DNA from: Hexactinellida sp. DTS-2022
Taxonomy: Eukaryota; Porifera; Hexactinellida
Length of the DNA: 64,000 nucleotides
NCBI GenBank assembly: GCA_028753945.1
Contig: JAPNXP010000007.1
Location: forward strand, 4,092,001-4,156,000
Direction: 5' to 3'
Position numbers and translations under genes: made by a program
The notes under the pieces: model-generated
The model's input: the letters and a program-made list of their open reading frames with translations, nothing else
Told to the model about the DNA's origin: nothing
Databases searched by the model: none
Part shown: piece after piece, positions 2,651 through 60,165 of the stretch
Position numbering within the stretch: position 1 is the first letter of the stretch
Layout of the letters: each line of letters starts with the position of its first letter

Positions 2651-3552
2651 TTGTCGAATTATTTTTGTGAAGGTTTCCATTATATCAATGCTAGGGAATC
2701 TGAATCCTGTATTTATGTAAAATGTAGCCTGTTTCGAACTCAATCTTGTGAATGCTATGGAAAAATAAACAAATCAGCAAATTTACTCGAAATTTCTACT
2801 TTTCACAACCATGAAGCTGGAGAATATAATCATGATGCAATTACACTAAGTAATAAAATTAAGCGAAGAGCGGAAATATCTACTACGAACCTTCGAGAGA
2901 TATTTAATACTTGCCGAGAATCTGAGGGGTCATCTACTGTTACCTTCAAAAATTGGAAAGTAGTATGTGTAAGAGGAGAAGAATCATGCAACCTAAATTA
3001 CCTACTACTACAGCATTAAAATTTGATCAATTGTTGCAAGAGTCACAACATTATTCAAACCATTTACAAACAGTCATCAACAGAGATAACATTGCTATTA
3101 TTTTTGGTTCAAGCTGTATGAGAAACATGCTAAAGAGTTCAACGATGGTTCACTTTGATGGAACTTTTAACGTTGTTCCATGGCTCTTTTATCAACTGTT
3201 TACAATCTTCGTTCACGTTGATGGCCATGTTCTTCCCGCTATACATGTTCTCATGACAAGTAAATATGAAGCTCTAATCATGTTGTATTTTTATCAATTC
3301 GTAAATTATTTTCCTGATTTTAAACCTACTTTCGCGATTGGTGATTTTGAAATAGCTCCAAGGAATGCTCTAGCACAAACATATCCATATATCACGATAA
3401 TTGGTTGCTGGTTCCATTTTACGAAAGCAGTCTTTGAAATGGTTAAGAAAATCGGACTTTCAAAATTATATACGCATAAGCAACTTTCAAAGTATGGATC
3501 CGAAATTAAAATGGCATTACCACTAATGCCAGAAAATTTTCTCTGTGCCTAA
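2651..3552 (+). pseudogene. MULE transposase with FLYWCH finger, broken
   Basis: Two overlapping frames make one decayed Mutator-like transposase. Frame 1 (2651-3019) holds a FLYWCH-like finger: aromatic/cysteine residues (YVKCSLF, CECYGK) and the terminal TFHNHE. Frame 2 (2953-3552) holds the core: FDGTF with the first catalytic Asp, the membrane-like FYQLFTIFVHVDGHVLP strand, GDFE with the second Asp, and GCWFHF with the C/H motif, ending soon after the MALPLMP segment. A frameshift lies in the overlap, and the third acidic residue (NNxEGWH in the intact relative at 32267) is missing, so the 3' third is lost. No ATG begins frame 1. The relative at 32267-33646 is about 459 aa; this copy is inactive. 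Confidence 0.85.
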
Positions 3553-15780: not shown

Positions 15781-16290
15781 CTAGCGCGCTTCGCTTGCTA
15801 GGTCGCTTCGCGGTAGAACACAACCACACATTAACCGCTTCGCGGTTGATGTGTGTTATATATACTTTTAACATTGATTATAAAGCGTAAATAGGCCTAA
15901 ATTGTCAAGTTTTATAATGTGAAATTTTAGTGATTACGTCATCATGCGGTGAGTTAGCATATTCGTAATCTGGTGTGACCAACGTGTCCGCATCATTAAT
16001 GTACATGTTCTATTAAATTTTCAGATTTTTATGTTTTAGAGGGCGCGAATTATGTGCGATTAAGTGAATTTTAAAGGTTCTCGAAATGTGACAATGACGT
16101 CATAACTTGTTGAGGTGTGAGAAATTTTGAGTGGAAACCTCAACTTGTTGGCGGGTGCCAAAAGTAACCCGTATATGCCAAAAATCTAATTAGGAAATCG
16201 TCCAGTTTCTTCAATCAACTCGGAACATACAAAGAAATATATACACACACCCACACATATATACCCAGCCTTGTGTTTTAATAGTATAGA
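15781..16290 (-). mobile_element. Non-autonomous Helitron, family A, 510 bp
   Basis: On the minus strand it begins TCTATACTATTAAAACACAAG-like sequence at 16290, preceded by A, and ends CTAG at 15781, followed by T. The 3' end has GC-rich hairpins (aaccgcttcgcggtt; gctaggtcgcttcgcgg). These are Helitron hallmarks: TC start, hairpin, CTRR end, insertion between A and T, no target duplication. No Rep/helicase gene. A perfect (CATA)n tract starts 3 bp beyond its 5' end. Confidence 0.85.
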
Positions 16291-16293
16291 TAA

Positions 16294-16887
16294 ATACATA
16301 CATACATACATACATACATACATACATACATACATACATACATACATACATACATACATACATACATACATACATACATACATACATACATACATACATA
16401 CATACATACATACATACATACATACATACATACATACATACATACATACATACATACATACATACATACATACATACATACATACATACATACATACATA
16501 CATACATACATACATACATACATACATACATACATACATACATACATACATACATACATACATACATACATACATACATACATACATACATACATACATA
16601 CATACATACATACATACATACATACATACATACATACATACATACATACATACATACATACATACATACATACATACATACATACATACATACATACATA
16701 CATACATACATACATACATACATACATACATACATACATACATACATACATACATACATACATACATACATACATACATACATACATACATACATACATA
16801 CATACATACATACATACATACATACATACATACATACATACATACATACATACATACATACATACATACATACATACATACATACAT
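16294..16887. repeat. Perfect tetranucleotide microsatellite, about 148 copies
   Basis: Uninterrupted atac/cata repeat for 594 bp with no variant unit visible. Long open frames in several frames (YIHT and YVCM repeats) are arithmetic consequences of a four-base repeat, not genes. Confidence 0.98.
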
Positions 16888-17930
16888 CACTTGGTCGAAA
16901 TTACTTCACCGTTATGTCTAATAGGTAAAATATGCCAAAACACATATTTGCGCAAAATTGTTTGGAAAGTGTAGTTCAAAGGGTATCCTGTACTGATATT
17001 TAGGCATATATGGTGAATCTCAGAATTGCATAATTTACTACTAGGAATACTCTAGATGATGTAGAGATTGACTTCTATGATTTTTTTTTTCTTAATTTTC
17101 AATAAATGATGGTGTTTTTTAATAAAATATGACGTAATCTCCCAAATATGGAAATTTTTCAAAATTGTTGAATCTTTTTGAAATTTTCAACATATTATTA
17201 GAACACTATTTCTTCACAGTAATAGTCTTTATTTTAATTATTTTGCAGAAGAAACGATCCTATTACGTCATTTCTAAATTCGAAATTTTTTCCAAAAAGA
17301 CACTTTGGGCAGAAAAATCTAAAAAATTTAATTTTTATCCTAGAAACTCAATTTTTTTTTAAAATGCTCAGTATATGTAGGCGCATGTTTTCAATCGCGG
17401 TTGTTTTGGCATTATAATACAAAAAAATTGAATTAGTATACTTTTAATGAAGAAAAGTGGGGGTTTTTTGACCAATTTCACAAAAATGACAATAACATAG
17501 AGTAGATTAAAGAAAAAGCATATTTTGGTCTGATTGAAAACATTGAGTATTGACTCAGGTATAATTTATAATTGACATGTTTCGCACTAAAAACTAACAT
17601 AAATTTTTTTTTAATTCTTTGGCTAGTATGGATTAGGCCTATTTTGACATTGTCTAGTTCATAACTAAGGATATATACATAGTAGAACTCTAATATTTTC
17701 AGGGATATCTTAGAATACTTAGTACTATCCAAAAACGCAATAAAAACATTAGGTCGTCGGGTGTCGAAATATCAATACAGAGCGACCTTAATGACAACAT
17801 CTCAAAAACTATTTATTTGGGAGCACATAAATTTTATATTAACTAATAAATAACCTACCATCATAGTATCCGTACATAAAAATTCTCCACTTTTAACGCT
17901 TCCGTGATACCTTGTATCAACCCTGGGTTA
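16888..17930. other. No feature recognised
   Basis: AT-rich single-copy-looking sequence with homopolymer runs (17082-17090, 17351-17360). Small frames here show no motif. Confidence 0.5.
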
Positions 17931-31980: not shown

Positions 31981-33865
31981 ATATCTTCCCACTTCGTCAA
32001 TTCTCATTTCGTCAATTCCCATTTTGTCAATTCCCATATCGTCAATTTCATATTTCGTCAATTCCCATTTCGTCAACGTTGACTAAATGGGAACTTGTAT
32101 ACACATAATAGTTTATGTATAACGCTCAAAAACAATTGTTCAATGGTGAATAGTTACCTTTGTCACCTACTGGGGCTTCACCGATGGTTATTTTCTTATA
32201 TAATCAGTGTACAAGCAATGAAAGTATATCTTGCTAATTGTTATAAAATATATTTACCTGGTTTGCATGTTCGCCGAGACGACAAAGGGAAAACGTGCAG
32301 TAATCCATGAAGGATATCTGTATCAGAAAATTCGAGTTAATGGTCCTAAGTCATGGTGGAGATGTCAAGATAGGAGCTGTAATGGGAGGATAAGTATGGA
32401 TGATGACATTGTGATTAACGTGTCAGGAATTCATCATCATCCTCCCAATATGGCGAAGATTACTGCACAGACTGTAATAAGAAAAATGAGAAAAAGAGCT
32501 ATTGAAGAAACTACATCAATCCCTAAAATATATGCTGAAGAAATAGCGGCTGTTTCAGGGTATGAAGGAGTCGAACATTCAGAATTAGCGATCAATTTAC
32601 CACAGTTTCCCGCTATAAAATCGTCACTTTATCGAGGCCGGATGACAAAATATCCTTCACTACCACAAACTATTCAAGATATTACTTTTGGTGGTGATTG
32701 GACTCGTACTATTCAAGGGGAAGACATGCTTCTTGCAGACTCTGGTGAGAATGATCCTGAAAGAATTATAATGTTTGCAACAAAGAAAAATTTGGAAATA
32801 TTATGTAACTCGGACTGTATTTATCTCGATGGAACTTTCAAATCATGTCCAGATTTATTTTATCAGCTCTTCACTCTCCATGCTTTCGTAGAGGGGAAAC
32901 AATTCCCGTTTGTTTATGTTCTTCTACCTGGAAAGACAAGAATTTTATATGATCGAATGTTTCATATGCTGAAAGAAGCTTGTTGGAATAGCAACTTTCA
33001 AATGAATCCAAAGAGAATAATGTCAGACTTTGAAAGTTCTTTGATCCCATCAATTGCAATTCAATTTCCAGGATCCAAGCATAAAGGTTGTTTTTATCAT
33101 TTTTCTCAAGCAATCTGGAGGAAAGTTCAAAGTCTAGGTTATCAAACCGAGTACTTGAACAATGATCAATTTAGGGTATTTATACGAGAGATGATGGCAC
33201 TTGCTTTCATTCCTGAGTGGGAAGTAAGCATTGCGTTCCAGTCACTTTGTGCAGATACACCTGAGGGCCTCAATGTTGGCGAATTTATAGATTATATGGA
33301 CAGGACGTGGATAAATGGAACGTTCAAACCTGATTTGTGGAAAGTTTTCGACTCGAATGGACCTCGCACAAATAACCATCTAGAGGGATGGCACAATAGA
33401 TTGAACAGCTTTTTGGGAAGGCGGCATCCTAATATTTATCAATTGATGCAATTTATTACAAAAGAACAAGCTGTAATTGATATTGAAATTATCCAACTAC
33501 AAGCTGGTGCACTAGCTCCACCAAAGAAGAAGATGTACATTGCACTAGAATGTAGGATTGAAAATTTACGTCAGAAATATACGCGCGGTGAATTGGATAT
33601 CGATGAATATTTGCTCAGGATAGCAAATAATTTAGCAAATAGATAATTGATATTTTGAGTGTTTTGTTGAGTTGTGTTAACGTGTTTTCTCAAGAATTAT
33701 TAACCTATTTGAGTTTACTTGTAGTCTAGTAATTATGTCCCATTTCGTCAACGTTGACGAAGTGGGAATTGAAGAAATAGCAAGTTGACAAAATGGGAAT
33801 TGACGAAGTGAGAATTGGCGAAATAGGAATTGACGAAGTGCGAATTGACGAAGTGGGAATAATTC
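31981..33865 (+). mobile_element. Complete autonomous MULE element, 1,885 bp
   Basis: Perfect 9-bp duplication acatacatg at 31972-31980 and 33866-33874. Both termini are arrays of a 15-16-bp motif, ttcgtcaattcccat on the left (31988-32096) and atgggaattgacgaa on the right (33738-33860), inverted relative to each other. One intact transposase gene lies between. The architecture is complete and the gene has no stop, so it is probably young or active. Confidence 0.92.
32267..33646 (+). CDS. MULE transposase, FLYWCH finger plus DDE core, intact
   Basis: The first ATG of the frame is at 32267 (MFAETTKGKRAVIHEGYLYQ), giving 459 residues; bases upstream in the same frame begin only with TTG. Residues about 5-60 form a FLYWCH-type zinc finger (SWWRCQDRSCNGRIS, then GIHHHPPN). 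The MULE core follows: the first catalytic Asp in YLDGTFK (about residue 188), the second in MSDFESS (about 254), the C/H motif GCFYHF (about 275), and a candidate catalytic Glu in RTNNHLEGWHNRLN (about 373), with MALAFIPEWEV between. The C-terminus is helical and basic (PPKKKMYIALECRIENLRQK). It cuts and pastes the element flanked by the ttcgtcaattcccat termini. Two dead relatives occur nearby (2651 and 33960), with different sequence. No intron is needed. Confidence 0.93.
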   Translation: MFAETTKGKRAVIHEGYLYQKIRVNGPKSWWRCQDRSCNGRISMDDDIVINVSGIHHHPPNMAKITAQTVIRKMRKRAIEETTSIPKIYAEEIAAVSGYEGVEHSELAINLPQFPAIKSSLYRGRMTKYPSLPQTIQDITFGGDWTRTIQGEDMLLADSGENDPERIIMFATKKNLEILCNSDCIYLDGTFKSCPDLFYQLFTLHAFVEGKQFPFVYVLLPGKTRILYDRMFHMLKEACWNSNFQMNPKRIMSDFESSLIPSIAIQFPGSKHKGCFYHFSQAIWRKVQSLGYQTEYLNNDQFRVFIREMMALAFIPEWEVSIAFQSLCADTPEGLNVGEFIDYMDRTWINGTFKPDLWKVFDSNGPRTNNHLEGWHNRLNSFLGRRHPNIYQLMQFITKEQAVIDIEIIQLQAGALAPPKKKMYIALECRIENLRQKYTRGELDIDEYLLRIANNLANR

Positions 33866-42404: not shown

Positions 42405-43136
42405 TAAATTAGAGAAAACTGAAACAATTGGTTCATAATGGTAGCAATCATTATGGAGATAGATATTCAGAGCACTTGTAACGTTCTTTCCTCTTTTGGG
42501 ATTGAATCCATTGTGAGAAATTTTTTGCCATTCATTATACCCTTGAAAACATAAATATCTGTTTCTAACCATATTGCGAAAGAGAATAATTCAACGTCAG
42601 TTCCCCAGACTGTTATTGCTGACATCTTTTTCTTAGAAATATATTCCCCAATATTCTGATCGTGTTTTATCCTAACATATTTTTCACATAGGGAAGATGC
42701 CCTCATAAAAGTCAATAATTTCTTGCGTATATTATTTTATGTATATCTTCATTTGCTGACAACCACCATCCAAGTGCCCTAAACAGGCAATTCCCATCTG
42801 CAATTATGGATACCTTTTCCTTAGGATTACAATTATCTAGTATATACCCACTTGCGATTATCTCAGATGAAATCGGTGACACCTTTTGATAATCTAAAAG
42901 CATCTTACATTTCAAAATTCTCCATTCGTTATCCACTGGTAAAAAATGATTACTGGGATTCGAAGAACTTGTCCTATCGGAAATCAATTGTAGAAATTCA
43001 TTTTGTTGGTGTCCTCCTGATTTGGGAAATAGAAGTTTTCTTGTTTTCTTGTTAACATCCATTGGATTTTGCACTTGTGATAATGTGAAATTTAAGTGTA
43101 AATTGGATGTAGAAGGAACCTCAGATTTGTTCATAA
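42405..43136 (-). pseudogene. OTU-family cysteine protease, frameshifted
   Basis: Three minus-strand frames together make one OTU domain. Frame 1 (43134-42712) contains the catalytic signature IADGNCLFRALGWWL with Asp and nucleophile Cys. Frame 2 (42715-42467) carries the middle: RIKHDQNIGEYISKKKM, then WGTDVELFSFAIWLETDIYV. Frame 3 (to 42405) has IYLHNDCYHYEPIVSV with the catalytic His. OTU enzymes cleave ubiquitin chains; OTU domains also occur in transposon proteins. Frameshifts near 42713 and 42470-42480 and a MITE just after the His make it a probable pseudogene. A 500-bp hAT element is inserted at its N-terminal side (43137-43636), so the coding region probably began further right. Confidence 0.8.
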
Positions 43137-43636
43137 CAGAGTTGGAATCGGGTTCGGGTTTCTCGGGTCGGGTCGGGTTCGGGTCGGGTTCGGGTCGGGT
43201 TCGGGTCGGGTTCGGGTCGGGTTCGGGTTCAGATTCGGATTTAGAATCGGGTTCGGGTCGGGTTCGGGTTCGAAGTTGATCAGTTCGAACTTTGTGCGTA
43301 ATTTTTTTAAATTCAATGATTTAATTCTATTTTTTGAAAGATTATATTTACAATAGAAACAATATATGGAACTTTAATGAAATTGCCTCATAAGGACATT
43401 TATGGGATAAATATTATTAACCCATACTTGTTTGACTAATATTAGTTGAAATGTCAACATAACATATATTTTAGAGGAATTTCAGTTAATATCCACACTT
43501 ATATACACTTCGGGTTCGGGTTCGGGTTCGGGTCGGGTTCGGGTTGAAGATCGTCGGGTTCGGGTCGGGTTCGGGTTGAATATCGTCGGGTTCGGGTCGG
43601 GTCGGGTTCTGAAAAGTGGACCCGATTCCAACTCTG
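43137..43636. mobile_element. hAT MITE with CGGGTTCGGGT repeats, 500 bp
   Basis: TIRs cagagttggaatcggg and cccgattccaactctg. Perfect 8-bp duplication gttcataa at 43129-43136 and 43637-43644. Both halves carry ggttcgggtcgggttcggg repeats in the same orientation. The RPDPNP/GFGSGSG reading frames in it are repeat translations. Confidence 0.95.
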
Positions 43637-46220: not shown

Positions 46221-46330
46221 TACTATTAACTTAATATACCCATTTTCTCTGGAATATTCTCAATTTAAATAATCATCTGATAAAGTTTCGTAATTTTTGG
46301 TGCGATTTATCGTGTGCTATAACTACTACT

Positions 46331-46430
46331 TTTAATTATGCAAAAAGTGGGGTTTAAAGACGCGATAATTCGCACCAAAATTAAGATAATGACATATCAT
46401 AATTCTTTGATACCATATTCCTATCCCATA
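46331..46430. repeat. Relative of the 11.9-kb palindrome arm, left piece
   Basis: Matches 12735-12835 (gataattcgca, ccaaaatta, gacatatca, taccatattcctat). It continues at 59679-59747 (cactttcagctcaatcgtg..., compare 12842-12890), showing that the whole 46431-59678 block was inserted into this repeat. Confidence 0.7.
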
Positions 46431-46595
46431 GCTCCCAAGTAGGGGTCTCAATCCCGGGATCTCGGGATCCCGGTCCATTTTAGCCCGGGATTCAATCCCG
46501 GGATTAGACTTGCCAATCCCGGGATCCAGATATATTATGAGTATAGCAATGATTGTGAAGCCTGATGTGAATATTATCTTCTCGCATGACATATA

Positions 46596-46788
46596 CTGTC
46601 AGGTCTGCTTATTATGAACAAGATTTCGTCTGATAATATGAAGATTTATTATTATGAACAAATCCTACGGTCCCAATTTAACAACTTACATAGGGTTTGT
46701 ATTAAGTTGAGTTCGCTTATTATGAAGTCTCTCTATTATGAACACAATTTTTGGTCCCTTGAATGTTCATAATAATAGAACCTGACTG
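46596..46788. mobile_element. Pogo/Tigger-type MITE, 193 bp
   Basis: Ends ctgtcaggtctgcttatta and taatagaacctgactg (both continue as ttattatgaaca), TA flanks at 46594-46595 and 46789-46790. Internal words attatgaaca recur. Confidence 0.8.
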
Positions 46789-46975
46789 TAATTATATTCT
46801 TTAATTCATTTTTATCGCTTACATTTCTCGGTAATCAATTATTCGTTACTTGTTCAATTACGTGTGGCTTTGTCATTAGGTGAATTATTGATAACATGAT
46901 GCTTTGTTTATTAACAACAATCTTGAACCATTTCATATAAATATAGATTTAAATTCCTATCAGGAATAATCAGAA

Positions 46976-49900
46976 AATCCAAAATTGCAGCTGTGCCGAC
47001 GCATGTTCCTTTGGTGGCACTATATTTTTGTGTTGTTTATTGATAGTGCCTCCAAAGGAACATGCTGTCGGCGCAGGCTGCAATTTTGGATTTTTTTTCG
47101 CCAAGTCATCAACGTCCAAGGTGTGAAGAAGCATTTGTTATTTGGTCCGAGTCACAAGGAACGGTAAATAAATTTGAAGTTTGTTTCTATCTTAAACCAT
47201 CTTGAGTTTGATGCCATTCATTCATTATGTATTGAGAATAAATTATATTATTAGTTATTTATTTTAGCAATGGTATCCACGATTGGTTGAGTTGAGTCAA
47301 CAAATTCATTATATTATATTATTATATTTAATCCATTGTATAGTAATACTACAATTAAATAGAAGCCAGCTGGAATTTATAAGTTAAATCAATTTAATTA
47401 TTGCAAGTTGAAACAATAGTGAAAGATTTAACAAGTTAAATCAATATAAATATTACAAGTTGAAACAATGGAATTAGATTTCACAGTTTTACAGTAATTG
47501 AAGTGTGAGTAAACAAAGAAATTTCAACCCCTATTTATGGCAGAAATTAAACCCTTTATTGAAAATTTTCTTCTCCCATCAGACGCAGAATTTTATGGTG
47601 AATCCAAATGTGAAATAAAAATTGGGGGTTTAGTAAAATATTTTTTGAGTTATGGACCAGACAAATTTTGAAAGGTGTTAAAGATGTGTAAAAGATTTTT
47701 AATCAAAAATCGTAACCCCAGGTGCAAATTAGACGGTCCCATCGCACCTACATGCCAAGTTTCAGCCCATCAACTATAAAGCTCAGGCCAGGGCACCGTC
47801 TACGGAGAAAAAAATAAAATCCAAAATTGCAGACTGTGCCGACGCATGTTCCTTTGGTGGCACTATATTTTGTTGTTTGTTTATTGATAGTGCCTCCAAA
47901 GGAACATGCTGTCGGCACAGTCTGCAATTTTGGATTTTTTTTCGCCCAGTCATCAACGCCTCAAGGTGTCAAAAACCATTTGTTAATTGGTCCGAGTCAC
48001 AAGGAATGGTAAATAAATTTGAAGTTTGTTTCTACCGTAAACCATCTTTAGTTTACTGCCATTCATTCATTATATATTGATAATAAGTTATATTAATAGT
48101 TATTTATTTTAGCAATGGTATCCATGGTTGGTTGAGTTGAGTCAACAAATTCCTTGTATTATATTATTTTATTTAATCCATTGTATAGTAATACTAGAAT
48201 TAAATAGAAGCCAGCTGAAATTTATAAGTTAAATCAATTTAATTATCGCAAGTTGAATCAATAGAGTAGGATTTAACAAGTTTAATCAATATAATTATTA
48301 CAATTTGAAACAATAGAATCAGATTTCACAGTTTTACAGAAATTGAAGTGTGAGTAAACAAAGAAATTTCAACCACCATTTATGGCAGAAATTAAACACT
48401 TTATTGAAAATCTTCTTCTCCCATCAGACGCATAATTATATGGCGAATCCAAATGTGAAATAAAATTTAGGGGTTTAGTAAAACAATTTTTGAGTTATGG
48501 ACCAGACAAAATTTGAAAGGTGTTAAAGATGTGTCAAAAATTTCTTAATCAAAAATCGTAACCCCAGGTGCAAATTAGACGGTCCCATCGCACCCACATG
48601 CCAAGTTTAAGCCCATCAACTATAAAGCTCTGGCCAGGGCACCGTCTACGGAGAAAAAAAAAAACCAAAATTGCAGCCTGTGCCGACGCATGTTCCTTTG
48701 GTGGCACTATATTTTGGTGGTGGTTTATTGATAGTGCCTCCAATGGGACATGCTGTCAGCATAGCTGCAATTTTGGATTTTTTTTATCTATGTCATCATC
48801 ACTATGAAGGTGTTAAATTATTTCAAAAAGGTGTTACAGAAGGCATCGACCCTTAGAGTGGTGGAAGTTTCCATTTAGTTCACTTCATTTTAGAGATATT
48901 CAAGTATGAGTAGAATATAATAGCTGATGACTCAGCATTTTTTATGTGAGTGTTGGGTCATCACCCAACATCAACTAACCCATTTTAAATGTCGAATTAA
49001 CAAAATTGTAAAAACACATTTTTTTGACGATGTCATCATCACCTCAAGGTGTCAAGACCCACTTGTATAGGTGGCACGTGCCACAAGGACCAATTGATAA
49101 ATTGAAAGTTTGTTTCTATCTTCTATGATCTCTGAGATTAATGAAATTTAGATAATTAGTATAATATTTAATTAATCTATTAATAATTTAACACCAATAT
49201 TATGGTCATCAAAATATATTAAGTTCAATTATTTGTAAGTATTATTAATCTAAATTGAATTTCACTATCATATTTGAATTCAGCGCACTCGATAACCCCA
49301 ATAATCCAATTGGAACCGTCTATAAGTTAAATACAAAAGGAATTAATTATAATAAATTACGTCAGTACATTAATTGTGCAAGAATATTCTCGCGAAATAA
49401 ATATAATCACTTTATCTGTCGTTGTTGTGGAATGTAAAATGTTAACGGTTCTATCATAAACCATCTTTAGTTTAATGCCATTCTTACTTATTGATAATAA
49501 ATTAAATTATTAGTTATTTATTTTAGCAATGTTATCCACGGTGAGTTGAGTAAAGTCAACAAATTCCTTATATAAATTAATTTAATTTAATCCATTGTAT
49601 AGTAATGCTAGAATTAAATAGAAGCCAGCTGGAATTTATAAGTTAAATCAATATAATTATCGCAAGTTGAATCACTAGAGTAGGATTTAACAAGTTAAAT
49701 CAATATAATTATCGCAAGTTGAATCACTAGAGTAGGATTTAACAAGTTAAATCAATATAATTATTACAAGTTGAAACAATAGAATTAGATTTAACACTTT
49801 ACTGAAATTGAAGTGTGAGTAAACAAAGAAATTTCAACCCCCATTTATGGCAGAAATTGACCCCTTTATAGGAAAATTTATTCTCCCATCAGACGCAGAA

Positions 49901-52900
49901 TTTTATGGCGAATCCAAATATGAAATAAAATTTGGGGGTTTAGTAAAACATATTTTGAGTTATGGACCAGACAAATTTTTAAAGGTGTTAAAGATGTGTC
50001 AAAAATTTGTTAACGAAAAATCGTAACCCCAGGTGCAAATTAGACGGTCCCATCGCACCTACATGCCAAGTTTCAGCCCATCAACAATTAAGCTCTGGCC
50101 AGGGCACCGTCTTCGGGGAAAAAAATAATAATAAAAAAAATCCAAAATTGCAGACTGTGCCGACGCATGTTCCTTTGGTGGCACTATATTTTGTTGTTTG
50201 TTTATTGATAGTGCCTCCATAGGAACATGCAGGCGCAGGCTGCAATTTTGGATTTTTTTTCCGCCATGTCATCATCACTATGAAGGTGTTAAATTATTTC
50301 AGTAAGGTGTTTCAGAAGGCAACGACCCTTAGAGTCGTGGAAGTTTCCATTTTGCTCACTTCGTTTCAAAGATATTCAAGTTTCAGTAGAATATAATAAG
50401 TGATGAGTCTGCATTTTTTATGTGAGTGTTGGGTCATCACCCAACACCAACTAACCCGTTTTAAATGTCGAATTAAAAAAATTGTAAAAATACATTTTTT
50501 TAACGATGTCATCATCACCTCAAGGTGTCAAGACCCACTTGTATAGGTGGTACCTGGCATAAGGACCAATTGATAAATTGAAAGTTTGTTTATATCTTGT
50601 ATCATCTCTGAGATTAATGAAATTTAGCTAATTAGCATAAAAATTTAATTAATGTATTAATTATTTAACACCATTATTATATACAGCAAAATAAATTATT
50701 TGCAATCATTATTAATTTAAATTGAATTTCACTATAATGTTTGAATTCCACGCACTCGATAACCCCAATAATCCAATTGGAACCGTCTATAAGTTAAATA
50801 CAAAAGGAATTAATTATAATTAATTACGTCAGTACATTAATTGTGCAAGAATATTCTCGCCGAAATAAATATATTCACTTAATCTGTCGTTGTTGTGGAA
50901 TGTAAAATCTTAACGGTTCTATCATAAACCATCTTGAGTTTAAAGCCATTCATTCATTATGTATCGATAATAAATTATATTATTAGTTATAAATTTTAGC
51001 AATGTTATCCACGGTTAAGTTGAATTAAGTCAACAAATTCCTTATATTATAATATTTTATTTAATCCATTGTATAGTAATACTACAATAAATAGAAGCCA
51101 GCTGGAATTTATAAGTTAAATCAATATAATTATCGCAAGTTGAATCACTAGAGTAGGATTTAACAAGTTTAATCAATATAATTATTACAAGTTGAAACAA
51201 TGGAATTAGATTTCACAGTTTTACTGAAATTGAAGTGTGAGTAAACAAAGAAATTTCAACCCCCATTTATGGCAGAAATTGACCCCTTTATTGAAAAATT
51301 TCTTCTCCCATCAGACGCAGAATTTTATGGCGAATCCAAATGTGAAATAAAATTGGGGGTTTAGTAAACAATTTTTGAGTTATGGACCAGACAAAATTTG
51401 AAAGGTGTTAAAGATGTGTCAAAAATTTGTTAATAAAAAAACGTAACCCCAGGTGCAAATTAGACGGTCCCATCGCACCTACATGCCAAGTTTCAGCTCT
51501 CTATGTATGCAGGTGTGGCCAGGGCACCTGCTACGGAGAAATAAAAATCCAAAATTGCAGCCTGTGCCGACGCATGTTCCTTTGGTGGCACTATATTTTG
51601 TTGGTTGTTTATTTATAGTGCCTCCAAAAGAACATGCTGTCGGCGCAGGCTGCAATTTTGGATTTTTTTTTCGCCATGTCATCATCACTATGAAGGTGTT
51701 AAATTATTTCAAAAAGGTGTTACAGAAGGCATCGACCCTTAGAGTGGTGGAAGTTTCCATTTAGTTCATATAATTTTAGAGATATTCAAGTTTGAGTAGA
51801 ATATAATAGCTGATGACTCAGCATTTTTTATGTGTGTGTTGGGTCATCACCCAACATCAACTAACCCATTTTAAATATCGAATTAACAAAATTGTAAAAA
51901 TACATTTTTTTTACGATGTCATAATCACCTCAAGGTGTCAAGACCCACTTGTATAGGTGGTACCTGGCATAAGGACCAATTGATAAATTGAAAGTTTGTT
52001 TCTATCTTGTATCATCTCTGAGATTAATGAAATTTATCTAATTAGTATAAATATTTAATTTATTTATTTATTATTTAACACCATTATTATATACAGCAAA
52101 ATAAATTAAGTTCAATTATTTGCAATTATTATTTATTTAAATTGAATTTCACTATAATATTTGAATTCCACGCACTCGATAACCCCAATAATCTATTTGG
52201 AACCATCTCTATACGGTAAACACAGAGCGAATTAATTAGAATTAAATATGTCAGTACATTAATTGTGCAAGAATATTCTCGCTGAAATAAATATAATCAC
52301 TTAATCTGTCGTTGTTGTGGAATGTAAAATCTTAACGGTTCTATCATAAACCATCTTTAGTTTAATGCCATTCATTCATTATGTATTGATAATAAATTAT
52401 ATTATTAGTTATATATTTTAGCAATGTTATCCACGGTGTGTTGATTAAAGTCAACAAATTCCTTATATAAATTAATTTAATTTAATCCATTGTATAGTAA
52501 TGCTACAATTAAATAGAAGCCAGCTGCATTCATTGTGTATTGCTATTAAATTATAATATTCGTTATTTATTTTAGCAATGTTATCCACGGTTGGTTGAGT
52601 TGAGTCAACAAATTCCTTATATTATATTATTTAATTTAATCCATTGTATAGTAATACTACAATTAAATAGAAGCCAGCTGTAATTTATAAGATGAATCAA
52701 TATAATTATTACAAGTTGAATCACTAGAGTAGGATTTAACAAGTTAAATCAATATAATAATCGCAAGTTGAAACAATGGAATTAGATTTAACAGTTTTAT
52801 TGAAACTGAAGTGTGAGTAAACAAAGAAATTTCAACCCCCATTAATGGCAGGAATAAAACCTTTTTTGAAGGTTTTCTTCTCCCATCAGACGCAGAATTT

Positions 52901-55900
52901 TATGGGGAATCCAAATATGAAATAAAATTTTCGGGTTTAGTAAAACATATTTTGAGTTATGGACCAGACAAAATCTGAAAGGTGTTAAAGATGTGTCAAA
53001 AATTTCTTAATAAAAAATCGTAACCCCAGGTGCAAATTAGACGGTCCTACCGCACCTACATGCCAAGTTTCAGCCCATCAACTATAGAGCTCTGGCCAGG
53101 GTACCGTCTACGGAGAAAAAAAAAAAAAAAAATCCAAAATTGCAGCCTGTGCCGACGCATGTTCCTTTGGTGGCACTATATTTTGGTGGTGGCTTATTGA
53201 TAGTGCCTCCAAAGGAACATGCTGTCGGCACATGCTGCAATTTTGGATTTTTTTTCGCCATGTCATCATCACTATGAAGGTGTCAAATTATTTCAAAAAG
53301 GTGTTACACAAGGCATCGACCCTTAGAGTGGTGGAAGTTTCCATTTAGTTTACTTCATTTTAGAGATATTCAAGTTTGAGTAGAATATAATAGCTGATGA
53401 CTCAGCATTTTTTATGTGAGTGTTGGGTCATCACCCAACATCAACTAACCCATTTTAAATATCGAATTGACAAAATTGTAAAAACACATTTTTTTAGCGA
53501 TGTCATCATCACCTCAAGGTGTCAAGACCCATTTGTAGAGGTGGCACGTGCCATAAGGACCAATTGATAAATTGAAAGTTTGTTTCTATCTTCTATGATC
53601 TCTGAGATTTATGATATTTAATTAATTAGTATAAAAATTTATTTAATGTATTAATTATTTAACACCATTATTATATACAGCAAAATAAATTAAGTTCAAA
53701 TATTTGCAATTAATAATAATTTAAATTGAATTTCACTATAATATTTGAATTCCACGCACTCGATAACCCCAATAATCTAATTGGAACCGTCTCTATAAGT
53801 TAAATACAGAATGAATGAATTATAATAAATTACGTCAGTACATTAATTGTGCAAGAATATTCTCGCAGAAATAAATATAATCACTTAATCTGTCGTTGTT
53901 GTGGAATGTAAAATCTTAGGTTTCAATTAGAAAATAGAAGCCTACTAGATCTCACAGGTTGAATCAATATAATTATTACAAGTTGAAACAATGGAATTAG
54001 ATTTAACACTTTCAATTGAACTGAAGTGTTAGTAAACAAAGGACACTTGCAACTTAATTGTGGCACAAACGAAACCCAATTTCAAAATTCGTGCACTGTG
54101 AAAAGGTGTAGATTTTAATTCTCTATCCGTACATGTAAAACTTATCAAGCTCAAAAATAATTATTTCATTTTATGAGCCATAACTAGTTTAAATAGGTGT
54201 TAAAATTATTTGATCAAAATTCGTAACCCCAGGTGCAAATTAGACGGTCCCATCGGACCTACATGCCAAGTTTCAGCTCTCTATGTATAAAGGTGTGGCC
54301 AGGGCACCGTCTACGGAGAAAAAATAAAAATAAAGGCAGTGATTCTAATACTGGGCCACTATACTATAGTATAGTCGGCACAGTAATAAATAAAGGCAGT
54401 GAGATTAGAACTGGGCCACTATACTATAGTATAGTCGGCACAGTAAAAATCCAAAATTGCAGCCTGTGCCGACGCATGTTCCTTTGGTGGCACTATATTT
54501 TGTTGGTGGTTTTTGATAGCGCCTCCAAAGGAACATGCTGTCGGCGCAAGCTGCAATTTTGGATTTTTTCTCGCCAAGTCATCAACCCTCAAGGTGTGAA
54601 GAACCATTTGTTAATTGGTCGGAGTCACAAGGAACGATTGTTGAATTTGAAGTTTGTTTCTATCATAAACCATCTAGAGTTTAATGCCATTCATTCATTG
54701 TGTATTGATATTAAATTATATTATTCGTTATTTATTTTAGCAATGTTATCCACGGTGAATGAGTAAATCAACAAATTCCATATTTAATTTAATTTTATTT
54801 AATCCATTGTATAGTAATACTACAATTAAATAGAAGCCAGCTGGAATTTATAAGTTAAATCAATATATTTATCGCAAGTTGAAACAATAGAATAAGATTT
54901 AACAAGTCAAATGAATATAATTATTACAAGTTGAAAAATAGAATTAGATTTAACACTTTTACAGAAATTGAAGTGTGAGTAAACAAAGAAATTTCAACCC
55001 CCATTTATGGCAGAAATTAAACCACTTATTGAAAATTTTATTCTCCCATCAGACGCAGAATTTTATGGTGAATCCAAATGTGAAATAAAATTTGGGGGTT
55101 TAGTAAAACATTTTTTGAGTTATGGACCAGACAAATTTTGAAAGGTGTTAAAGATGTGTCCAAAATTTGTTAATCAAAAATCGTAACCCCAGGTGCAAAT
55201 TAGACGGTCCCATCGCACCTACATGCCAAGTTTCAGCCCATCAACAATTAAGCTCTGGCCAGGGCACCGTCTACGGAGAAAAAACAAGGTGTCAAGAACC
55301 ATTTGTCAATTGTTCCGAGTCATAAGGAACGGTAGATAAATTTTAAGATTGTTTATATCATAAACCATCTTGAGTTTAATGCCATTCATTAATTGTGTAT
55401 TGATAATAAATTATATTATTAGTTATATATTTTAGCAATGTTATCCACTGTAGTGAGTTGAGTCAACAAATTCGTAATATTATTTAATTTTATTAATCCA
55501 TTAAATAATAATACTACAATTATATAGAAGCCAGCTGGAATTTATAAGTTAAATCAATATAATTATCGCGAGTTGAATCAATAGAGTAAGATTTAACAAG
55601 TTAAATCAATATAATTATTACAAGTTGAAACAATAGAATTAGATTTAATATAATTATTACAAGTTGAAACAATAGAATTAGATTTAACAGTTTTACTGAA
55701 TCTCAAGTGTGAGGAAACACAGGAGATTGGCACCCCAATTATGGCACAAAGCTATGCTAAATTGAACATTCGTGAATTGCCAAAAGGTGTAGAAATTAAT
55801 TCTATATCCGTATATGTAAATTTTATCAAGCTCAATATTAATTATTTCATGTTATGAGCCATAATTAGTTTAAATAGGTGTTAAAATTATTTGATCAAAA

Positions 55901-58479
55901 ATCGTAACCCCAGGTGCAAATTAGACGGTCACTCCGCACCTGCATGCCAAGTTTCAGAACTCAATGTATACAGGTGTGGCCAGGGCACCTGCTACGGAGA
56001 AATAATAAAAATAAAAATCCAAAATTGCAGCTGTGCCGACGCATGTTCCTTTGGTGGCACTATATTTTGGTGGTGGTTTATTGATAGTGCCTCCAATGGG
56101 ACATGCTGTCAGCACACCTGCAATTTTGGATTTTTTTTCGCCATGTCATCATCACTATGAAGGTGTTAAAATATATCAAAAGGTGTTACAGAAGGCATCG
56201 ACCCTTAGAGTGGCGGAAGTTTCCATTTAGTTCACTTCATTTTAGAGATATTCAAGTTTGAGTAGAATATAATAGCTGATGACTCAGCATTTTTTATGTG
56301 AGTGTTGGGTCATCACCCAACATCAACTAACCTATTTTAAATATCAAATTAGCAAAATTGTAAAAACACATTTTTTTAACGATGTCATCATCACCTCAAG
56401 GTGTCAAGACCCACTTGTATAGGTGGCACGTGCCATAAGGACCAATTGATAATTTGAAAGTTTGTTTCTATCTTCTATGATCTCTGAGATTTATGATATT
56501 TAATTAATTAGTATAAATAATTATTAATAATATTTATAATTTAACACCAATTTCAATGTCAACTTATATTTATTAAGTTTAATTATTTTGTCATAAATAA
56601 TTAATTAATTAATTTGGCTATCAAATTTCAATTCCGCACACTCGATAACCCCTAATAAACAAATTGGGAGCATCTATATAAGTCATATACTGACTTAATT
56701 AATTATTATTAATTACGTCAGTATATTAACAGTGCAAGAGTATTCTTGCAGAAGGAAATATAATCACATAATCTGTCGTTGTTATGGAATGTAGAATCTT
56801 AGTTTTCAATTGGAAAATAGAAGCCTACTCGATCTCACAAGTTGAATCAATATAATAATAACGAGTTGAAACAATAGAATTAGATTTAACACTTTCAATT
56901 GAACTGAAGTGTTAGTAAACAAAGGAAACTTGCAACTCAATTGTGGCACAAACTAAGTACAATTTGAAAATTCGTGCACTGTGAAAAGGTGTAGAATTTA
57001 ATTCTCTATCGAATGCATATAAATAGAATATTCGCGCACTATTTATTGTTCTTTTTCTAATATTAAACAGGTGCAAAAATGTGTCCAAAAAAATGTGATA
57101 ATAAAACGTGACCCCAGGTGCACATCTGTAACCCATGAGACACATATCCTGAAAATTTGGGCTCTTAGTTAGTAAAACTCTGTTCAGTAGAGAGGCTACG
57201 GACTAATAACTAACCAAAGCACTAAGATTAGAACTGGGCCACTATACTATAGTATAGTCGGCACAGTAATAAAAATCCAAAATTGCAGCCTGTGCCGACG
57301 CATGTTCCTTTGGTGGCACTATATTTTGGTGGTGGTTTATTGATAGTGCCTCCAATGGAGCATGCTGTCGGCACAGGCTGCAATTTTGGATTTTTTTTTT
57401 CGCCAAGTCATCATCACTATGAAGGTGTTAAATTATTTCAGAAAAGTGTTTCAGAAGGCAATGACCCTTAGAGTGTTGGAAGTTTCCATTTAGCTCACTT
57501 AATTTTAGAGATATTCAAGTTTGAGTAGAATATAATAAGTGATTGAGTCAGCATTTTTTATGTGCGTGTTGTGTGATCACCCAACACCACCCAACCCATT
57601 CGAAATATATAATTCACAAAATTGTCAAAACTCATTTTTTTTACGATGTCATTAACACCTCAAGGTGTCAAGACACATTTATAGAGGTGCTACGTGGCTT
57701 AAGGATCAATTGATAAATTGAAAGTTTGTTTCTATCTTCTATAGTCTCTGAGATTTATGATATTTAATTAATTAGTATAAATAATTATTAATATTATTTA
57801 TAATTTAACACCAATTTCAATGTCAACTTATATTTATAAAGTTTGATTATTTTGTCATAAATAATAAATTAATTTATTTGGCTATCAAATTTCAATTCCG
57901 CACACTCGATAACGCCTAATAAACAAATTGGGAGCATCTATATAAGTCATATACTGACTTAATTAATTATAATTAATTACGTCAGTATATTAACAGTGCA
58001 AGAGTATTCTTGCAGAAGTAAATATAATCACATAATCTGTCGTTGTTATTGAAATCTATAATCTTAGTTTTCAATTGGAAAATAGAAGCCTACTCGATCT
58101 CACAAGTTGAATCAATATAATAATCACAAGTTGAAACAATAGAATTAGATTTAACACTTTCAACTGAACTGAAGTGTTAGTAAACAAAGGAAATTTCCAA
58201 CTCAATTGTGGAACAAACGAAGCCCAATTTAAAAATTCGTGCACTGTGAAAAGGTGTAGAATTTAATTCTCTATCGAATGCATATAAATTTAATTTTCGG
58301 GTACTATTTATTGTTCCTATTTCAATATTAAACAGGTGCAAAAATGTGTCCAAAAAATGTAATTAATAATCGTGACCCCAGGTGCATATCTGTAACCCAT
58401 GAGACACATATCCGTAAAATTTGGGCTCTTAGTGAATAATACTCTGTTCTGTGGAGAGGATACGGAAGGATAATAATAA
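46976..58479 (+). repeat. Tandem array of hairpin-bearing units
   Basis: Nine long hairpins at about 46976-47092, 47818-47936, 48664-48779, 50141-50254, 51548-51664, 53133-53249, 54450-54565, 56019-56132 and 57276-57392. Each has about 48-bp arms (ccaaaattgcagcctgtgcc, gacgcatgttcctttggtgg, cactata and complement) round a loop of about 20 bp. Spacing is 840 bp for the first two, then 1.26-1.58 kb. Spacers share boxes in fixed order, including gtaaccccaggtgca, aattagacggtcccatcgca, ggaccaattgataaattg, ctgtcgttgttgtggaatgt and agaagccagctggaattta. A unit near 55285 lacks the hairpin. The reading frames over hairpins (RRMFLWWHYI and similar) are not genes. Confidence 0.9.
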
Positions 58480-58977
58480 TAATATACCAAAGCACTAAGA
58501 CCAATACTGGGCCACTATACTATAGTATAGTCGGCACAGTAATAACTAACCAAAGCACTAAGACCAATACTGGGCCACTATACTATAGTATAGTCGGCAC
58601 AGTAATAATAAAGGCAGTGATTCCACTATACTATAGTATAGTCGGCACAGTAAAAATAATAAAAATAATAATAAAGGCAGTGATTCCAATACTGGGCCAC
58701 TATACTATAGTATAGTCGGCACAGTAAAAATAAAGGCAGTGATTCTAATACTGGGCCACTATACTATAGTATAGTCGGCACAGTAAAAATAAAAATAATA
58801 AAGGCAGTGATTCCAATACTGGGCCACTATACTATAGTATAGTCGGCACAGTAAAAATAAAGGCAGTGATTCTAATACTGGGCCACTATACTATAGTATA
58901 GTCGGCACAGTAAAAATAAAAATAATAAAGGCAGTGATTCCAATACTGGGCCACTATACTATAGTATAGTCGGCACA

Positions 58978-59012
<35 letters not shown>

Positions 59013-59131
59013 GGCAGTGATTCCAATACTGGGCCACTATACTATAGTATAGTCGGCACAGTAAAAATAATAAAAATAAAGGCAGTGATTCCAATACTGG
59101 GCCACTATACTATAGTATAGTCGGCACAGTA
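58480..59131 (+). repeat. Array of short perfect-core palindromes
   Basis: About ten copies of taaaggcagtgattccaata followed by ctgggccactatactatagtatagtcggc-type sequence ending acagta, joined by aataat/aaaaat spacers. The core ctatactatagtatag is a perfect palindrome; the outer arms gggcca and tcggcac pair imperfectly. Single copies occur near 4475-4520, 20068-20222, 54345-54446 and 57232-57270. Arms resemble those of the long hairpin. Confidence 0.9.
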
Positions 59132-59353
59132 AAAATCTTAATTAAAATCTTATTATTACTATACTACGATCTTATGCTCTATTTATTATGTAACGGAGTT
59201 ATCAATCAATACACAATTACATTAATTCAACATATTTGCATGATTGGTCAAGTGTCAATAAATTATTTGATCAATCCCGGGATCCCGGGATTGAACATGA
59301 TTCCAATCCCGGAATTGGAAAAAGGCTCCGGGATTGAGACCCCTACTCCCAAG
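59132..59353. other. Right end of the hAT-type unit, no gene
   Basis: AT-rich to 59272, then cccgggatcccggg repeats up to the TIR. Confidence 0.5.
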
Positions 59354-60165
59354 TGACCCGCATTTGAGCATCGAAAGCCGCTGACCCGCGAAGGTCCTCG
59401 AAAAACCCGCATTGGAAAACTAATTTTCTGGAGCACAATTCTCTAAAATCAGATCAGTATTAAGACTAAGCACGCTTAAAACACCTAAATAGTTCCCTTT
59501 TTGTTCATTTTAGTTACTCTTATTCAGTAAATAGGTAGTAAACTTGTCTGTTTCCAATAGAAACTAACATAAATATGTCAAAATGGCTTTACCAATCAAA
59601 TTTTAAGTACTCCAAAACGAGTCCACACCCCCTTCGAATGACCCGCATTGGAGCAACTTGAGAGGTTGCTATCCCATACGGTATATTAAATTCACTTTCA
59701 GCTCAATCGTGACTATTTATTGGAAAAGATCAATTCCTCATTATTAATCTATACCATTAAAACACAAGCCTGGGTGAATATGTGTATATGTGGTGTATAT
59801 ATTTGTTTGTATGTTATGAGTTGATTGAAGAAAGTGGACGGTTTCCAAATGTGATTTTTGGCATATAGGGGTAACTTTTGGCACCCGCCAACAAGTTGAG
59901 GTTTCCAATCAAAATTTCTCACACCTCGACAAGTTATGACGTCATTGTCACATTTCGAGAACCCTGAAAATTCACTTAATCGCACATAATTCGCGCCCTC
60001 TAAGAGATAAAATCTGAAAATTTAATAGAACATGTACATTAATGATGCGGACACGTGGGTCACACCAGATCACCAATATGCTTACTCATTATCGCATGAT
60101 GACGTAATCACTAAATTTCGCATTGTTAAATTCTACTATTTAGGCCTATTACGCTTTATAATCAA

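Follow-up and report, generated by a model that had tools for sequence, protein, structure and literature searches.

How many mobile elements lie inside one another between positions 46331 and 59747 of this window (the whole 64,000-nucleotide stretch of DNA analysed, C16:4092001-4156000), and in what order did they arrive? We compared each layer of the block with its relatives, all taken from the same assembly (112.4 Mb, 18 contigs; eukaryotic, judging from its hAT and Helitron domains and its repeats), using genome searches that scored the best candidates only, such that all copy counts given here are lower bounds. The nested insertion very probably consists of four mobile-element layers, laid down in the order old repeat, small inverted-repeat element, hAT-type element and tandem array. 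An earlier note on this DNA had described a three-layer nest; this nest exists, and relatives that lack the inserts support the sequence of events given there for the three outer layers, while the fourth layer, the array, had been overlooked.

The outermost layer is an old dispersed repeat, and its two halves were delimited by a search with the joined flanks and an alignment of relatives.

46331..46420, unstranded: left half of the old dispersed repeat
59675..59747, unstranded: right half of the old repeat, beginning with the target sequence 'cata'

When the two flanks were joined into a 184-base query, with the split point at 46426/59675, they matched a dispersed repeat at about 66-72%. No insert interrupts the match at the join in 25 of 28 fetched relatives (L041-L068), these 25 not being independent copies because several loci overlap as neighbouring inverted pairs, and the match covers only one side of the join in L049, L064 and L065. 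The earlier proposal that the outer flanks are halves of one repeat is therefore confirmed. At the join the sequence of the relatives is ...gataccatattcctatatag-ttataata..., evidence for a single ctat in the insertion site.

As the first step, a small inverted-repeat element would have landed in this old repeat, with duplication of 6 bp of the target. Its parts now lie on either side of the later insertions.

46421..46426, plus strand: left target duplication of the small element (ctatcc), from family comparison
46427..46439, plus strand: left end of the small element (catagctcccaag), with the same left end at 28 of 29 other loci
59346..59668, plus strand: remainder of the small element, from the copy search, its first 8 bases forming the right-hand copy of the hAT duplication
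59669..59674, plus strand: right target duplication of the small element (ctatcc), from family comparison

Without the hAT-type element the small element measures 328 bp, and about 40 or more copies were found with the query 59340-59760. The family ends read CATAGCTCCCAAGT and, at the opposite end, ACTTGGGAGGTATG, with inverted ends of 14 bp, and the right end of the window element has diverged (gaggttg versus gaggtatg). Duplications of 5-7 bp flank 11 of the 15 copies that have both ends, compared with 0 of 210 mismatched flank pairs used as a control; the remaining four (L010, L024, L035 and L036) have no duplication of at least 5 bp. The word ctatcccata does occur at 46421-46430 and 59669-59678, as the earlier note stated, but its reading as a 10-bp duplication did not hold. 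Since CATAG is the family's own left end (28 of 29 other loci, with an exact 'cata' start in 23 of those 28) and family duplications are 5-7 bp long, we take the outer duplication to be ctatcc (6 bp) only. The left 'cata' is thus the end of the small element, so that four of the ten bases fall within an element end, an outcome that the note had itself named as evidence against its reading, and the right 'cata' (59675-59678) is target sequence that matches by coincidence.

In a second step, a short non-autonomous hAT-type element would have entered the left inverted repeat of the small element, duplicating 8 bp, and was presumably moved by transposase acting in trans from the hAT proteins of this genome.

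46432..46439, plus strand: left hAT target duplication (ctcccaag), within the left inverted repeat of the small element
46440..46973, plus strand: left arm of the non-autonomous hAT-type element, delimited by short relatives
59131..59345, plus strand: right arm of the hAT-type element, delimited by short relatives
59346..59353, plus strand: right hAT target duplication (ctcccaag)

The inverted repeat TAGGGGTCTCAAT is present at both ends of this layer, the element ends read TAGGGGTCTCAATCCCGG, and we take short terminal inverted repeats of the form TAGGGGTCTCAAT to indicate the hAT type. The perfect 8-bp copies lie directly outside these inverted ends, just as had been reported, and their placement exactly at both ends cannot be due to chance. 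By contrast, the inner hAT unit of 12.9 kb proposed earlier has to be divided, because the two arms together amount to only ~749 bp and hold a separate insertion of 12.16 kb. Copies of the hAT are numerous in the genome (about 40 or more), many of them detected with the query 46300-46700, and the six short relatives with both ends (L002-L005, L007 and L008; 731-780 bp) match window positions 46440-46977 and 59127-59345 with nothing between, position 46973 being joined straight to 59131. Five of the six have their own exact 8-bp duplication, L008 being the one without. The element resembles other short non-autonomous members of the hAT superfamily in its 8-bp target duplications, its TAGGG... 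inverted ends and the abundance of short copies, and is unusual among them only in its cargo. Across the genome, the hAT transposase domain PF05699 (Pfam) gave at least 150 scored matches, counted irrespective of their position relative to these ends. The reverse nesting was observed at L007 (C2:777074-780324), where the same short hAT lies inside a Helentron-array unit with an 8-bp duplication.

The cargo is a tandem array on the opposite strand. Among 27 hAT left-arm rows, 25 are followed at once by the right arm; the other two, in the window and at a locus on contig C8, lead into an array.

46974..59130, minus strand: tandem array of non-autonomous Helentron units, with an empty site in the 25 hAT copies just mentioned
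46974..47098, minus strand: terminal hairpin, the 3' end of the outermost unit, identified from nine direct copies and the fold
47817, 48661, 50138, 51545, 53130, 54447, 56014 and 57273, minus strand: starts of the other unit 3' ends
58480..59130, minus strand: minisatellite at the 5' end of the array, with a 59-68 bp period containing ...CTATACTATAGTATAG... and first bases ACTGTGCCGAC after a T-run

As assembled, the array spans 12.16 kb and contains nine copies of the 125-bp hairpin at spacings of 844-1585 bases. Read along the minus strand, it begins with a 5' T-run, ACTGTGCCGAC and the minisatellite and finishes with the hairpin, CAATTTTGGA and a T-run at the 3' end. The hairpin folds at -82.9 kcal/mol over 180 nt, and CTGTGCCGAC adjoins the 5' end of the array with an inverted copy near the 3' end, forming subterminal inverted repeats. 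The target is a T5 run; the A-runs on the left (4) and right (5) leave room for a duplication of 4-6 bp, and the positions of the array ends are ambiguous by 4-5 bases inside the A-runs. Four loci elsewhere were listed as single-unit, of which only C14 is flanked on both sides by unrelated sequence, this monomer having T-rich edges and no clear duplication; C7, C2 and C12 were rejected as single-unit copies because further units continue on at least one side. We also rejected one common pair of array ends at all loci, as three other arrays have different edges. A strict unit order common to all arrays found no support, the 98% unit being the final one in only part of the arrays. An array at C3:3615558-3624854 has units that switch strand part-way, in a large inverted arrangement.

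Seven open reading frames in the array were compared with Pfam, and no family scored above the cut-off (one weak match, E 0.72). The units are a non-autonomous Helentron derivative without Rep or helicase genes of their own. A hammerhead or other known RNA was considered and rejected, as the 20 Rfam matches in 46300-59800 at E up to 1 were all below the gathering score and consisted chiefly of microRNA-precursor models placed on hairpins. A tRNA-derived unit was likewise rejected, a bacterial-code scan having found no tRNA in the window.

The assignment to Helentrons rests on contig C1, on which a frame with a helicase C-terminus and an endonuclease (Pfam UvrD_C_2, 2.9e-10; Exo_endo_phos_2, 2.3e-7) ends 600 bp short of a segment with a 90.5% match to window positions 47320-46974. 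The end of this frame is open over 674 aa and has an OTU-like tail by eye, and 3 kb upstream there is a Rep domain (PF14214, E 5e-28, in a 1700-aa frame), which by arithmetic shares this reading frame. A 1286-base query running from the frame end through the hairpin showed that six loci hold the frame end: in four of these the sequence continues without interruption as far as the shared 3' hairpin end (positions 1282-1286), a fifth breaks off at 921, and in the sixth ~800 bases intervene. The last ~363 bases of the query alone were found at more than 30 further loci. Because frame-end loci reach the same hairpin, the 3' end of the units is common to full Helentrons with Rep, helicase and endonuclease, such that a dispersed satellite-like repeat of this genome is now tied to a Helentron 3' end.

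Array loci were also found near Reps of the C1-type clade more often than expected by chance. Among the matches listed, a distance of 20 kb or less separates 10 of 53 array loci from such a Rep (shuffled mean 0.65, maximum 6; 0 of 2000 shuffles reached 10) and 0 of 53 from a Rep of the other clade, with the Rep list and the clade split chosen by eye and the size of C5 assumed. PF14214 matches in the genome fall by score into two Helitron Rep groups (about 220 and 104 bits), and many of these frames run for 1300-1900 aa without stops, which makes recently active copies likely.

Published Helentrons favour T-rich targets and have an inverted subterminal repeat 38-60 bp from the 3' end (PMC4067079; Thomas et al. 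2014). Compared with the Helentrons and HINE/DINE-1 elements in the part of that source used here, the array is alike in sharing its 3' end with a Rep/helicase/endonuclease frame, in T-rich insertion with T-runs at the borders, in a 3' stem-loop, and in short inverted repeats near both ends with internal micro- or tandem repeats. It differs from the elements described there in its 3' hairpin, which at ~125 bp is far longer and extends to the terminus, in an inverted subterminal repeat that lies ~14 nt rather than 38-60 bp from the 3' end, and in having several units, head to tail.

As the third step, head-to-tail non-autonomous Helentron units (HINEs) would have inserted, as one block, at a run of five A/T within the hAT. 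We infer that the source of this multi-unit block was rolling-circle replication past unit ends, in which case rolling-circle transposition would have both made and inserted it with trans-acting Helentron proteins of this genome. For unit 50404-51813, identity reaches 97% to units elsewhere and 87-91% to the longer matches in its own array; unit 56010-57272 is matched at 98-99% by at least 18 rows elsewhere, of which 12 are nearly full length, and at 91% by its neighbour. Since units are closer to other loci than to their own neighbours, the block did not originate on the spot from a single unit; judging from these identities, the array appears to have arrived as several units or to have been joined from several. 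Growth in place from one inserted unit via unequal crossing-over, although compatible with the variable unit lengths (844-1585 bp) and with a large internal duplication in the C1 array, is very unlikely given that both tested units are up to 97-99% identical to units at other loci versus 87-91% to window neighbours. Later local growth or loss of arrays is likely, given local duplication elsewhere.

Tandem arrays of truncated Helitrons are described as products of rolling-circle replication (Xiong et al. 2016, via the review PMC12628747), and the window array resembles them, as far as the review's account used here goes, in its head-to-tail units, many unit ends and genome-wide dispersal. In plants such arrays have many 5' ends and one 3' end according to the same account, whereas the window array has nine 3' ends. 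A second parallel in that review is with the MITEs Xstir and miDNA4 in Xenopus, which are likewise short non-autonomous DNA transposons with a tandem array inside and have AT-rich microhomology at the array edges. Unlike in Xstir and miDNA4 as presented there, the array in the window consists of copies of another transposon and is absent from most hAT copies (25 of 27), and we do not credit it to MITE-type spread by the hAT. As Helitron or Helentron arrays and tandem-repeat MITEs have both been described already (in the portions of PMC4067079 and PMC12628747 drawn on here), we claim no new kind of element; the case is unusually readable but otherwise ordinary, and the kinds of element are all known.

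The order of the insertions is shown by comparison with relatives, together with both duplications and the empty hAT in most relatives. Each layer has relatives without the next insert: 25 of 28 for the old repeat, 28 of 29 with an unbroken left end for the small element and 25 of 27 with an empty interior for the hAT. The stratigraphy is therefore clean, and the order has been tested rather than guessed. Identity to the nearest relatives rises from the outside in (old repeat ~70%, small element 97%, hAT 98.5%, and one array unit 98-99% in the innermost layer), which agrees with the order of insertion but dates the families rather than the insertions.

The second array-bearing hAT, at C8:2348753-2355857, is 7.1 kb long and has an array of this kind inserted at the identical nucleotide. 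Both layer-4 junctions are seen again there at 98%, with bases identical to those of the window, and their recurrence speaks against a misassembly of layer 4. The C8 copy is flanked by its own perfect 8-bp duplication, gatgcaag. In the hAT arm tree, the window groups with L002, L003 and L008 (support 100/98) and C8 falls outside, and a joint clade of window and C8 was rejected (p-AU 0.00016; eight rows, 737 columns) in a test chosen only after the differing sites had been seen. The arrays of the window and C8 are 94.8% identical over their first 325 bases, compared with 95.3% for the window and C1 arrays, and ~90% identical at their right ends. A hairpin-loop variant was rejected as proof of a single origin of the C8 and window arrays, since C2 has a 100% match over 46974-47060.

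As the hAT arm histories are discordant, the jump of one composite is less likely than either repeated insertions in a single T-run or an exchange among hAT copies. Just short of an even chance, in our judgement, is that two Helentron arrays independently entered the same T-run in two hAT copies. The arm tree, which separates the window from C8, fits this reading, and the T-rich targets reported for Helentrons (PMC4067079, in the part cited above) fit it as well. The hAT arms contain only four A- or T-runs of at least 5, two of them correctly oriented, so two hits in one run are not far-fetched. Against it, both junctions are base-identical although A/T-run lengths vary among copies elsewhere. 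It is possible, if rather unlikely, that unequal exchange or gene conversion in the arms passed the array from one hAT copy to another; this would account for identical junctions alongside discordant arm histories, but the tract would have to end no more than ~18 bases from the right junction, where site 59149 differs, and to carry at least 6 kb. On a third view, which corresponds to the 12.9-kb hAT unit of the earlier note, one hAT received the array a single time and its ends then carried it on as a composite, with window and C8 as sisters. This would be the simplest reading of the base-identical C8 junctions and of the 8-bp duplication around the C8 copy, but it is improbable in view of the post hoc rejection of the joint arm clade and of a C8 array no closer to the window than the C1 array, and the duplication is equally expected if the array arrived after the hAT.

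A further proposal is that the five-A/T run in the hAT is a preferred docking site at which circles released from arrays dock repeatedly by microhomology, turning short hATs into carriers of multi-kilobase satellite blocks. We advance it because the hAT sequence 'CAGAAAAATC' resembles the unit-to-unit joint 'CAGTAAAAATCC', and consider it speculative and doubtful. With one array site occupied in two hAT copies of different arm histories, the choice between hot spot and exchange becomes testable.

Outside the nest, the window contains an acidic repeat frame with an OTU-like motif after it (42712-43320, minus strand; the motif by eye, with a weak Pfam match) and, at about 16186-16974, a long four-base repeat that is open in several frames (YIHT/YVCM repeats). 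A 474-aa frame at 32222-33646 (plus strand) combines MULE transposase with FLYWCH finger domains; a second MULE frame, at 2926-3552 (plus strand), is shorter.
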